Shown here: positions 36,786 through 40,407 of the stretch, piece by piece
How the letters are laid out: every line of letters begins with the position of its first letter
How positions within the stretch are numbered: position 1 is the first letter of the stretch
Assembly (NCBI RefSeq): GCF_008274215.1
Contig: NZ_VTPS01000002.1
Span: forward strand, 1-64,000
Length of the DNA stretch: 64,000 nucleotides
Reading direction: 5' to 3'
DNA from: Calorimonas adulescens
Lineage (GTDB): Bacteria; Bacillota; Thermoanaerobacteria; Thermoanaerobacterales; UBA4877
Translations under genes and position numbers: made by a program
The notes under the pieces: model-generated
Told to the model about the DNA's origin: nothing
What the model saw: the letters and a program-made list of their open reading frames with translations, nothing else
The model's database searches: none

Positions 36786-36956
36786 CTATTCATTGATACA
36801 TACCTTTATCTTCTTGTCAATGCAACCCTCGCTGTCATATTCAAATACATATGCCCCCCATTTTTCTACCCTGAACTCACAGCTGCAATCCCTGCAAAAG
36901 TACTTTTTCTTTCCTATTTTCCCTATGTTAGTACTTTTGCATATTGGACAACGCAC
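36786..36956 (-). CDS. Small zinc-ribbon protein, 56 residues
   Basis: GTG 36956 to TAG 36786, with AGGTGAT six bases upstream. The product starts MRCPICKSTNIGKIGKKKYF, continues CRDCSCEF and ends VCINE; two C-x2-C pairs 16 residues apart form a classic zinc ribbon, followed by an aromatic-rich strand. Such ribbons bind nucleic acid or protein, but no specific family is recognised. It follows copA by 17 bp in the same direction, so it may be transcribed with it, though nothing ties it to copper. Confidence 0.75.
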   Translation of the reverse strand: MRCPICKSTNIGKIGKKKYFCRDCSCEFRVEKWGAYVFEYDSEGCIDKKIKVCINE

Positions 36957-36973
36957 TTAAATCACCTCGCAAT

Positions 36974-39382
36974 TTAAGGCTTAAACCGCCTCAATCTTAA
37001 AGCGTTGGTCACCACAGATACTGAGCTAAAGGCCATCGCAGCGCCTGCAATGGCTGGGTTCAATAGTCCTGCTGCGGCAAGAGGTATGCCTGCTGTGTTA
37101 TATCCAAATGCCCAGAAGAGGTTCTGTTTTATATTCCTCATCGTAGCCCTGCTCAGCTTTATTGCAGTCACAATACCTCTGAGATCTCCACTCATAAGGG
37201 TTATATCCGCTGCCTCCATTGCTACGTCAGTGCCTGTGCCTATTGCTATCCCCACATCTGCTGCAGCCAAAGCTGGAGCATCATTAATGCCATCACCTAC
37301 CATTGCAACAATTTTACCTGACTCCCTTAGCTTTGCTACCTCCTCTGCTTTATTCTCAGGTAGTACCTCAGCAAGTACGTGGTCTATGCCAACCTGTTTT
37401 GCTATAGCTTCGGCAGTACGCCTGTTGTCACCTGTTATCATCCATACTTCTATACCCATATCCTTAAGCGCCTTAATTGCTTCTTTTGAGCCATCTTTGA
37501 CTGTGTCAGCTACAGCTACTATACCTTTAATCCTGTCTTTCTCTGCTAATATCATAGCTGTTTTGCCTTCGCTTTCCAGTCGGTCCAGTATGGATACAAT
37601 TTCGTCAGATATTTCAATATTTTTGATATTTATTAATCTCCTGTTACCTAAATATAACTCTTTTCTGTCTATTTCTGCAACCACACCATGCCCCGGTATT
37701 GCTTCAAATTTTGCCGGATCTGCCATTTGCAGCTGGTTTTCCTTGGCTTTGTTCACAATTGCTTCACCTAACGGGTGCTCAGAATTTTTTTCTGCTATAG
37801 CTGCAAGTCGCAATACCTCGTTCTCCTCTGTACCGTCTATGCTGATAACATCTGTAACCTCAGGTTTACCTTTTGTTATAGTACCAGTCTTATCCAGAAT
37901 TATGGCATTTATCCTGTGGGCCCTCTCTAAGTGCTCACCGCCTTTTATCAGCACCCCGTTTTCTGCACCCTTGCCTGTTCCCACCATGATGGATGTTGGA
38001 GTGGCCAGGCCGAGGGCGCATGGACAGGCTATGACCAGTACTGATACTGCAGCTACCAATCCTACAGTAGCATTGCCAAAGCCAAAGGTCCATACCAAGA
38101 ATGTAGCTAATGCTATAAGTATAACCGTTGGTACAAATATACCTGATATCTGGTCTGCCAGTTTCTGAATGGGTGCCTTTGAACCCTGGGCATCCTCTAC
38201 CATCTTTATAATCTGGGCCAGGGCTGTATCCTTGCCTACCTTTGTAGCCCGGAACTTGAACGATCCAGTCTTGTTTATCGTGGCTCCAATGACCTCATCT
38301 CCTTCTTTCTTCTCTACAGGAATGCTCTCGCCTGTGAGCATTGATTCATCCACTGAGGAATAACCCTCTATTATCACTCCATCCACCGGTATCTTTTCGC
38401 CGGGCCTCACTACCACTATATCTTCTACCTCAACATCCTCTACAGGAATATCCTGTTCCACACCGTCTCTTATCACTCTTGCGGTCTTTGCCCTAAGCCC
38501 CATGAGTTTTTTTATCGCCTCGGATGTCCTGCCTTTAGCTGATGATTCCAGGTACTTCCCGAGGAGTATTAAAGTAATTATCACTGCTGCTGCCTCAAAA
38601 TAAAGCTGATGGTAATGGCCAAGTATGACATTGGCTAAGCTATAAAAATACGCTACTGAAGTACCCATAACTATGAGTACATCCATGTTGGCGCTGCGGC
38701 CTCTTAATGCGTGATAGGCATTTTTATAGTATCTTGACCCTATCCAGAACTGTATCGGAGTATCTATGACAAGCTGAAAATATGGGTTTGACAAAAAGGT
38801 CATAATGCCAAAACCTATCTCCAGTATCATATTTAAGACCAAAGGGACTGTAAGTATAGCAGATATTACAAACGATGTCCAGAGACTCTTTGCCTCTCTC
38901 TCCCTTTCCTGTCTTTCTATATCTACCCCTTCTTCTTTTTCTCTGGCATCATATCCGACTTTCCTTATGGCCTTTATCATGTCCTGGACAGTGACTTCAC
39001 TGCTGTTGAAGTCAACCGTGGCTGTCTCTGTTGCAAAGTTTACAGTGGCCTTGACTACGCCATTCAACCTGTTTAAAGTCTTCTCTATAGTATTGGCACA
39101 TGAGGCGCATGACATTCCGATAAGCATAAGCTGTGCCCTGTCAAATACAACATCATAGCCTAAATCCCGCACCTTATTAACCATGTCGTCCATGCTGACC
39201 TGGGCAGGGTCGTATATAACTGTGCCTCTCTCTATGCTAAAGTTGACATTGGCCTCCTTCACACCCGGTAGTTTCGATAGGCCACGTTCTATAGTATTGG
39301 CACAGGAAGCGCATGACATTCCTTTTAATTTCAATGTCACTTTCTTCTCATTACCCTTTACATCTTTATTTATTGTCTCCAT
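36974..39382 (-). CDS. copA: Copper-exporting P1B-type ATPase
   Basis: An 802-residue P1B-1 copper pump. Two N-terminal heavy-metal domains each have [12 protein letters not shown] (residues about 19-30 and 88-99). Then come membrane segments, the phosphatase TGE loop ([11 protein letters not shown]), the copper-site [13 protein letters not shown], the phosphorylation [19 protein letters not shown], and [16 protein letters not shown]. The C-terminal pair of helices has [16 protein letters not shown] and [15 protein letters not shown], the N-Y and M-S-S-type copper ligands (here F-S-S). ATG 39382 has GAGGAGG upstream. A consensus promoter and a CsoR-like palindrome lie directly upstream, so copper-inducible expression is expected. 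Confidence 0.95.
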
Positions 39383-39405: not shown

Positions 39406-39422
39406 ATACCCCGTGGGGGTAT
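39406..39422. promoter_or_regulatory. CsoR-like operator upstream of copA
   Basis: ATACCCCGTGGGGGTAT, a 17-bp near-perfect palindrome with the TACCC...GGGGTA core of copper-repressor CsoR sites. It lies just downstream of the -10 box of the promoter at 39434-39462 and about 24 bp before the copA start, where a bound repressor would block transcription. Confidence 0.82.
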
Positions 39423-39643: not shown

Positions 39644-39681
39644 AAATAATGAGTAGGGCCAATTGGCCCTACTCATTATTT
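39644..39681. terminator. 38-bp perfect palindrome, terminator of the small metal-protein gene
   Basis: Perfect palindrome centred between 39662 and 39663 (arms AAATAATGAGTAGGGCCAA and its complement). It begins within the last codons of the gene at 39676 and, on minus, is followed by TCTTTCTT. GC-rich core and T tail fit an intrinsic terminator; symmetry means it could also act on plus. Confidence 0.82.
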
Positions 39682-39837
39682 ATCCTGCAACGGCTTCTCC
39701 TCATTTTGTTCACGCTGATGATTTCCGTGGCATCCACCGCCGTGGTTATGCCCAAACATCCCAAACGTCATAAGTATCATCATTAATGGACAAGCTAACA
39801 CTGCAAGCAATGGTAAAACTCCTAATATCCAGTTCAT
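39676..39837 (-). CDS. 53-residue His/Cys-rich single-span membrane protein of the copper cluster
   Basis: ATG 39837 follows AAGGAGG with 8-base spacing. The product MNWILGVLPLLAVLACPLMM... has one hydrophobic span (about residues 4-27), with Cys16 and several Met inside it, then a metal-ligand-rich tail: GHNHGGGCHGNHQ, then acidic EQNEEKPLQDK. Met/Cys in the membrane and H-x-H...C-H-x-x-H at the surface suggest copper binding. A CsoR-like palindrome lies 21 bp upstream of the start. It resembles small DUF2933-type proteins found near copper genes, but no firm family can be given. Confidence 0.8.
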   Translation of the reverse strand: MNWILGVLPLLAVLACPLMMILMTFGMFGHNHGGGCHGNHQREQNEEKPLQDK

Positions 39838-39857
39838 ATATTCATCCTCCTTTCATA

Positions 39858-39874
39858 ATACCCTATACGGGTAT
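39858..39874. promoter_or_regulatory. CsoR-like operator upstream of the 53-residue metal protein
   Basis: ATACCCTATACGGGTAT, with perfect 6-bp arms (ATACCC/GGGTAT) separated by 5 bp. On minus it directly follows a TATAAT-like box (TATTATAATACCC), so the operator would cover the transcription start. Confidence 0.82.
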
Positions 39875-39924
39875 TATAATATACTTTTCCCGAAAAAGTG
39901 TGATGGAAGTATGATATATTTGTA

Positions 39925-39957
39925 AACATAATAAAGACACCGGAAAGATCCGATGTC
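39925..39957 (-). terminator. Terminator of the copZ operon
   Basis: On minus GACATCGGA-TCTT-TCCGGTGTC, a 9-bp stem with one G-T pair, then TTTATTATGTTT. It starts 7 bases past the stop of the gene ending at 39965. Confidence 0.88.
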
Positions 39958-39964
39958 TGAATAT

Positions 39965-40129
39965 TTATAGAATATTAAGAGCAAGTACAGCTACCACAGC
40001 AGCAACTGTAAGTCCAATTATATAGGGGGTATAATTTACTTTACTGGCTGTCTCTTCATTGCTTATTACTCCAGCCTCTTTTGTCTTTGGCCTCTCCGGA
40101 TCAAATTCTTCACCACAGCATCCTGCCAT
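39965..40129 (-). CDS. 54-residue membrane protein with an N-terminal Cys pair, downstream of copZ
   Basis: ATG 40129 is 27 bp after the copZ stop, with AAAGGGA upstream. The product starts MAGCCGEEFDPERPKTKEAG, has a polar linker to residue about 33, and ends in one membrane span (YIIGLTVAAVVAVLALNIL) with almost no residues after it. Cys4-Cys5 near the N-terminus is the only obvious metal site. Being second in the copZ operon and ended by a strong terminator, it likely acts with CopZ, perhaps as a membrane dock or copper acceptor; this is inference. No family recognised. Confidence 0.75.
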   Translation of the reverse strand: MAGCCGEEFDPERPKTKEAGVISNEETASKVNYTPYIIGLTVAAVVAVLALNIL

Positions 40130-40156
40130 TCCGTACACTTCCCTTTAGGTTTAATT

Positions 40157-40366
40157 TTAAGCTACTACTTCATACCCTGCATCATCAACAGCAGCCTTTA
40201 TGTCGTCCAATGTAACCTTTGCAGGATCGTATGTTATATCTGCCTTACCTTCTTCCAAACTTACCTTCACATCTGATACTCCATTTAGAGATTTAATGGC
40301 ATTTTCCACATGCATCTTGCAGTGCTCGCATGTCATGCCGTTAACCTTTACCGTCATTTTTTCCAT
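40157..40366 (-). CDS. copZ: CopZ-type copper chaperone
   Basis: A 69-residue heavy-metal-associated domain: VKVNGMTCEHCKMHVENAI with the M-x-C-x-x-C copper site at about 11-16, and DAGYEVVA at the end. It carries Cu(I) in the cytoplasm and delivers it to CopA or to repressor. The Lys after the second Cys is common in CopZ proteins. ATG 40366 follows GGAGGTGAT. Two CsoR-like boxes lie upstream (40391-40407, 40525-40541). It shares an operon with the 54-residue Cys-pair membrane protein. Confidence 0.94.
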   Translation of the reverse strand: MEKMTVKVNGMTCEHCKMHVENAIKSLNGVSDVKVSLEEGKADITYDPAKVTLDDIKAAVDDAGYEVVA

Positions 40367-40390: not shown

Positions 40391-40407
40391 ATACGGTAGG
40401 GGGGTAC
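40391..40407. promoter_or_regulatory. Degenerate CsoR-like operator upstream of copZ
   Basis: ATACGGTAGGGGGGTAC: same 17-bp length and position pattern as the other boxes with one weak half-site (ATACGG for ATACCC). It lies 24 bp before copZ, the same distance as the box before copA. Confidence 0.6.

Follow-up and report, generated by a model that had tools for sequence, protein, structure and literature searches.

A short-form DUF2933 membrane protein with a CsoR-type operator between copZ and copA of Calorimonas adulescens

A 53-aa open reading frame (ORF) in a 64,000-nucleotide stretch of Calorimonas adulescens contig NZ_VTPS01000002.1 (positions 1 to 64,000; here called the window) is, on comparison with its ortholog and the Pfam families, a real gene whose product is a new, divergent, short-form member of the catalogued family DUF2933. 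The ORF is flanked by copZ on one side and copA on the other, and by its sequence signals looks like a monocistronic gene under CsoR control (Table 1). Its translation, MNWILGVLPLLAVLACPLMMILMTFGMFGHNHGGGCHGNHQREQNEEKPLQDK, is a single-span membrane protein with a CPLMM..M...M ligand ladder and an HNHGGGCHGNH tail. That this product acts as a membrane Cu(I)-binding helix, buffering or relaying copper near CopA, is given about an even chance.

Table 1. Features of the DUF2933 locus (window positions)
Feature	Position	Strand	Basis
copA, Cu(I) P1B-type ATPase, two HMA-type N-terminal motifs and CPC	36974..39382	minus	sequence
CsoR-type operator of copA, ATACCCCCACGGGGTAT	39406..39422	minus	perfect pattern match
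Intrinsic terminator beginning in the last sense codon of the ORF	39644..39681	minus	folding computation
DUF2933 ORF, 53 aa	39676..39837	minus	Pfam match, L010/G023 ortholog under purifying selection, predicted helix 3-28
Ribosome binding site, AAAGGAGG	39846..39853	minus	sequence; 8 nt upstream of the ATG of the ORF
CsoR-type operator of the DUF2933 ORF, ATACCCGTATAGGGTAT	39858..39874	minus	perfect pattern match
Promoter-like -35/-10 pair, ATCACA-17-TATTAT	39876..39904	minus	weak consensus match; just upstream of operator ATACCCGTATAGGGTAT
Intrinsic terminator closing the copZ-p57 unit	39935..39958	minus	sequence and folding; separates ORF from copZ-p57
p57, 57 aa, CCGEE N-terminus and C-terminal membrane span	39965..40138	minus	translation; cotranscription with copZ by position
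copZ, 69-aa HMA copper chaperone	40157..40366	minus	PF00403, E value 3e-21
Degenerate CsoR-type operator before copZ, 3 mismatches	40391..40407	minus	pattern comparison

The original prediction, made from the sequence of the window, had credited the ORF with a strong ribosome site and a CsoR-like operator of its own, and both were confirmed as AAAGGAGG and the perfect site ATACCCGTATAGGGTAT, respectively. The terminator of the ORF has a 17-bp stem (-28.6 kcal/mol; z, -8) with a T-rich stretch after the hairpin. As the upstream copZ-p57 unit is closed by a terminator of its own, the ORF looks like a separate transcription unit between copZ-p57 and copA. A single close relative was identified in the genome collection, an ortholog with an intact frame in Thermoanaerobacteraceae MAG Yes75-04 (L010/G023), which represents another genus and has the matching gene order copZ, p57, ORF, copA, and p56. 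The two products are identical at 37 of 49 residues, with the helix and the CHG tail the best-kept parts. Third codon positions hold 14 of the 26 nucleotide differences, and by these estimates (dN, 0.13; dS, 0.62; dN/dS, about 0.2) purifying selection acts on the pair. The ORF is short, as might be expected of a chance frame within a regulatory region, but it matches a Pfam family, and the conservation of its ortholog together with the ribosome site, operator, and terminator makes a chance origin so unlikely as to be negligible. Nor is it too short for routine gene finders, as had been supposed, since RefSeq routinely annotates DUF2933 genes down to 54 to 59 aa.

A scan of the whole 2.59-Mb genome for the operator pattern ATACCCN5GGGTAT identified four perfect sites, every one of them at metal genes: csoR (18 bp upstream), copA, the DUF2933 ORF, and a YHS protein gene followed by a second P-type ATPase gene. 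With one mismatch allowed, 13 sites were found versus 10 for the reversed control; one-mismatch sites are thus about as common as the control, and weight is placed only on the perfect ones. The CsoR of this genome has the Cys-His-Cys ligand pattern of known copper CsoRs. Sharing this palindromic G/C-tract operator with csoR and copA, and having a perfect copy of it, the ORF looks to be copper controlled through CsoR, and the copper-regulon membership originally claimed for it is supported. The operator of the L010 ortholog is altered in its left half (ATACGGGTATAGGGTAT). Operator-like sites were located within 150 bp upstream of DUF2933 genes at 10 of 41 loci, whereas pieces drawn at random from these loci gave an expectation of 0.48. 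At the second P-type ATPase (G000 C6:107598-109935), the perfect CsoR-type site lies at the start of the YHS-domain ORF ahead of it, an arrangement suggestive of another copper export unit belonging to this regulon.

Further observations concern the genes around the ORF. The p57 product reads MYGMAGCCGEEFDPERPK... and carries a CC motif and a C-terminal membrane span; it had no Pfam or NCBIfam family match, and its relatives were found in 2 of 200 genomes, only within the bacterial family to which C. adulescens belongs. Directly after copA, p56 (36786 to 36956, minus strand) encodes 56 aa with a zinc-ribbon-like CPxC...CxxC arrangement, is identical in L010, and had no Pfam match at an E value of 0.01. 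Across copA and p56 the DNA of the window (36786 to 39250) and of L010 (6530 to 8992), from another genus of the same family, is 99 to 100% identical, compared with about 70 to 85% for flanking chromosomal genes (dS of about 0.04 or 0 for copA/p56 versus 0.8 to 1.3). This pattern is a sign that copA underwent recent gene transfer or recombination, an event that left behind the DUF2933 gene and the promoter region of copA.

The DUF2933 profile (PF11666) matched the 53-aa product at 21.6 bits (E value, 2.5e-4), a marginal score against the Pfam gathering score of 21 bits, and was its only Pfam match at E values up to 10. Comparison with NCBIfam gave no match and with PDB sequences only chance matches. 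A search of plasmid proteins with the 53-aa sequence itself found no relatives; with the sequence of a relative as the query, DUF2933 matches were identified on 227 plasmid records. Family members occur in 53 of 399 genomes of the phylum, including that of the window (52 of the 398 others). The protein had been called undescribed, a label that falls with its coverage by Pfam. Papers searched for the family (PF11666), for small copper proteins of the membrane, and for lgt on copper plasmids included no functional study of DUF2933. In this literature the family appears by name only, between pcoG and silP in CHASRI (PMC8568146, PMC12582456), in merR-copA-cupredoxin-DUF2933-ICMT clusters of Alteromonas and relatives (PMC8478169), and in the FixK2-dependent operon bsl7992-bll7991 of Bradyrhizobium (PMC9104804).

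Forty-nine DUF2933 members were aligned by anchoring on the CPLM core, with one HPLMM plasmid copy kept outside the alignment. From the anchoring Cys at position 0 (100%), the ladder continues with Met at +3 (92%), His or Met at +4 (100%; His in 44 and Met in 5), Met at +7 (94%), and Met or His at +8 (90%) and +11 (88%), while positions in between hold ligands in 0 to 8% of members. Replacements are mostly of one ligand for another (H4 to M4, M8 to H8, M11 to H11, and, in the one plasmid copy, C0 to H). These positions share one face of an alpha-helix, and only 0.65% of possible position sets are equally one-sided, with the caveat that +8 lies about 70 degrees off the center of the stripe. In the window protein the near-invariant core is C16-P17-L18-M19, and the ladder consists of C16, M19, M20 (position +4), M23, and M27; T24 occupies +8, and the R/K at +9, the residue supporting topology, is missing. 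AlphaFold2 predicted one helix at residues 3 to 28 (block pLDDT, 73 to 89) and an unstructured tail. All five ladder residues fall within this helix, in keeping with the single Cys- and Met-containing membrane span first described. None of the papers searched was found to describe the one-sided ladder, which opens the function to testing.

The original prediction had also placed the function in the His/Cys tail, represented in the window protein by H30, H32, C36, H37, and H40. Most tails in the family are indeed His rich, 46 of 52 members having two or more His, but a tail Cys occurs in only 24 of 52. It is the membrane helix, not the tail, that is the strongly conserved part of DUF2933, and the tail was dropped as a candidate for the conserved business end, given its Cys frequency against the near-invariant ladder. 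Homologs lacking the Cys/His residues had been named as evidence that would count against the prediction; this evidence bears on the tail Cys and not on the Cys, Met, His-or-Met, Met ladder of the membrane. In the long forms of the family, K and R residues number 69 before helix 1, 36 in the loop, and 66 after helix 2, which by the positive-inside rule suggests a cytoplasmic tail; by homology, the tail of the short window form is probably cytoplasmic as well.

CopA-like ATPase genes lay within 8 kb of DUF2933 in 19 of 39 other genomes, whereas 0.71 would be expected from the number of CopA-like genes per genome (p of about 7e-21). At roughly half of the Bacillota loci, the neighbors are Lgt, DsbD-like, ICMT-like, or FtrD-like and do not include CopA, so CopA is not an obligatory partner. 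Recurrent neighbors at 42 Bacillota loci were an uncharacterized family of 170 to 180 aa (15 loci), Lgt (12), DsbD-like proteins (9), ICMT-like proteins (8), and SHOCT proteins (8). On plasmids, 11 of 12 inspected loci were clearly copper related by gene content (CopY, multicopper oxidase, cupredoxin, CopC/CopD, pco, CopK, or a heavy-metal ATPase accompanied by an HMA protein), the copper genes of the partially annotated Alteromonas locus being taken from PMC8478169; the twelfth, from Lactiplantibacillus, contained nothing beyond Lgt, a histidine kinase, and another DUF2933.

The 170- to 180-aa family, exemplified by a 180-aa gene at +2 in L079, looks extracytoplasmic, carries a TTHxxDL ... 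HHPxG pattern, and had no Pfam match. The frame of one prolipoprotein diacylglyceryl transferase neighbor (gene +3 of L075) runs on into a membrane helix that has FLMMRGGGCCGGHGGHGGH plus a YHS-like motif. In another neighbor, of 122 aa, FFMMRRGGCCGGHGHGHSGH is fused to an HMA domain. Both are helix-plus-metal-tail designs similar to DUF2933.

From the reality of the gene, its family membership, its operator and terminator, and the conservation of its ligands, all read from sequence, the following course of events can be proposed. A rise in Cu(I) would cause CsoR to let go of the operator, and the DUF2933 protein would be inserted in the membrane with its tail probably in the cytoplasm. The putative Cu(I) ligands C16, M19, M20, M23, and M27 on one helix face, together with the soft His/Cys tail, could then hold Cu(I) at the membrane, where it might be buffered or relayed in the direction of CopA; in other bacteria the destination could be extracytoplasmic copper proteins. 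The DUF2933 match, the four perfect operators, the CopA linkage, the copper plasmid clusters, and the ligand stripe argue for a buffer or relay, and the membrane metal buffer or CopA feeder first suggested is still a reasonable hypothesis. Against it, Met-rich helices are also found without a metal, neither the +8 ligand nor the +9 R/K is present in the window protein, and CopA is absent near many loci.

The family could instead work in the maturation of copper or redox proteins outside the cytoplasm, passing Cu(I) or thiols on to exported proteins in concert with Lgt, DsbD/CcdA-like, ICMT-like, and cupredoxin partners, in which case the adjacency to copA seen here would be one arrangement among several. 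The frequencies of Lgt, DsbD-like, and ICMT-like genes at the 42 Bacillota loci are consistent with this, as are Lgt-DUF2933 pairs on copper plasmids of Lactococcus, Listeria, and Enterococcus, DUF2933-ICMT pairs in Vibrio, Sphaerotilus, and Alteromonas (PMC8478169), and bsl7992-bll7991 of Bradyrhizobium (PMC9104804). However, none of the partner genes adjoins the ORF in this genome, and its own operator groups it with copper defense, leaving such a role rather unlikely. The CopA linkage and the single-helix form could also point to a small accessory subunit or regulator that contacts a P1B-type ATPase helix to helix and carries no copper, for which CcoS or the phospholamban-like peptides accompanying ATPases provide precedent; this is improbable, as what is strictly conserved is a set of Cu(I) ligands and not a generic packing motif, and many loci lack CopA.

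A leader role akin to that of CutF, in which copper bound by the emerging peptide would slow translation and change the overlapping terminator hairpin, allowing RNA polymerase or ribosomes to reach copA, has that protein as precedent (PMC9973294). Here the terminator begins in the last codon of the ORF, and in L010 the ORF contains the 5′ arm of the terminator. On the other hand, copA is served further along by a separate operator and a promoter match of 11/12, the 53-aa protein contains neither CxxxC nor a proline-rich stalling end, and DUF2933 is often far from copA in other genomes, all of which make a leader highly improbable.

More broadly, DUF2933 proteins may form an unrecognized class of intramembrane Cu(I) relays built on a one-sided Cys-Met-His/Met-Met helix, a proposal that we regard as tentative. 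If it is correct, the relay helix would take copper from the cytoplasmic side and move or store it within the membrane, and such relays would serve in many copper-resistance islands of bacteria, among them Enterococcus, Listeria, and Salmonella. The family is present in many mobile copper-resistance clusters, some of them in farm and food bacteria. With so clean a ladder, function can be tested directly on one helix face of a 53-residue protein, for which the window gene is convenient in being short, monocistronic, and equipped with its own copper switch.

Among named small metal proteins, the mercury proteins MerF and MerT are small and membrane bound and hold ligands within the membrane, as does the window protein; theirs are vicinal Cys pairs, whereas the window protein has one helix Cys (C16) with Met and one tail Cys. 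CupA of Streptococcus pneumoniae is likewise a copper-induced, membrane-anchored copper protein beside CopA. It binds copper through a soluble cupredoxin domain, which the 53-aa protein lacks, having no Pfam match to it and no folded domain after the helix. The FixS Pfam family, covering CcoS/FixS, was not matched at E values up to 10. CutF of Rhodobacter capsulatus is also a small protein with Cu-binding residues, encoded in a copper locus and followed by an RNA hairpin, but it is an exported nascent-chain sensor with a CxxxC copper motif and a proline-rich stalling C-terminus (PMC9973294), both absent here. The CutF-type hairpin shields the ribosome site of the next gene, whereas that of the ORF is a terminator and lies about 260 bp ahead of copA.

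Within DUF2933, the copies in CHASRI/pco-sil islands and Alteromonas merR-copA clusters share the family and the copper setting (PMC8568146, PMC12582456, PMC8478169), and by sequence comparison the Alteromonas and Klebsiella copies have the same core as the window protein. They differ in being long forms with two helices, encoded in operons alongside pco/sil or alongside cupredoxin and ICMT-like genes, under other regulators. Among the short forms are those of 54 to 59 aa on Lactiplantibacillus and Listeria/Enterococcus plasmids (WP_003688746.1 and WP_002325573.1), which have in common with the window protein a single helix, a CPLMM or CPIMM core (HPLMM in one), the Met ladder, a His-containing tail, and, in most, a copper-related locus. 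Unlike them, the window protein scores near the family cut-off and has neither Met/His at +8 nor R/K at +9, and its gene forms a monocistronic CsoR-type unit.
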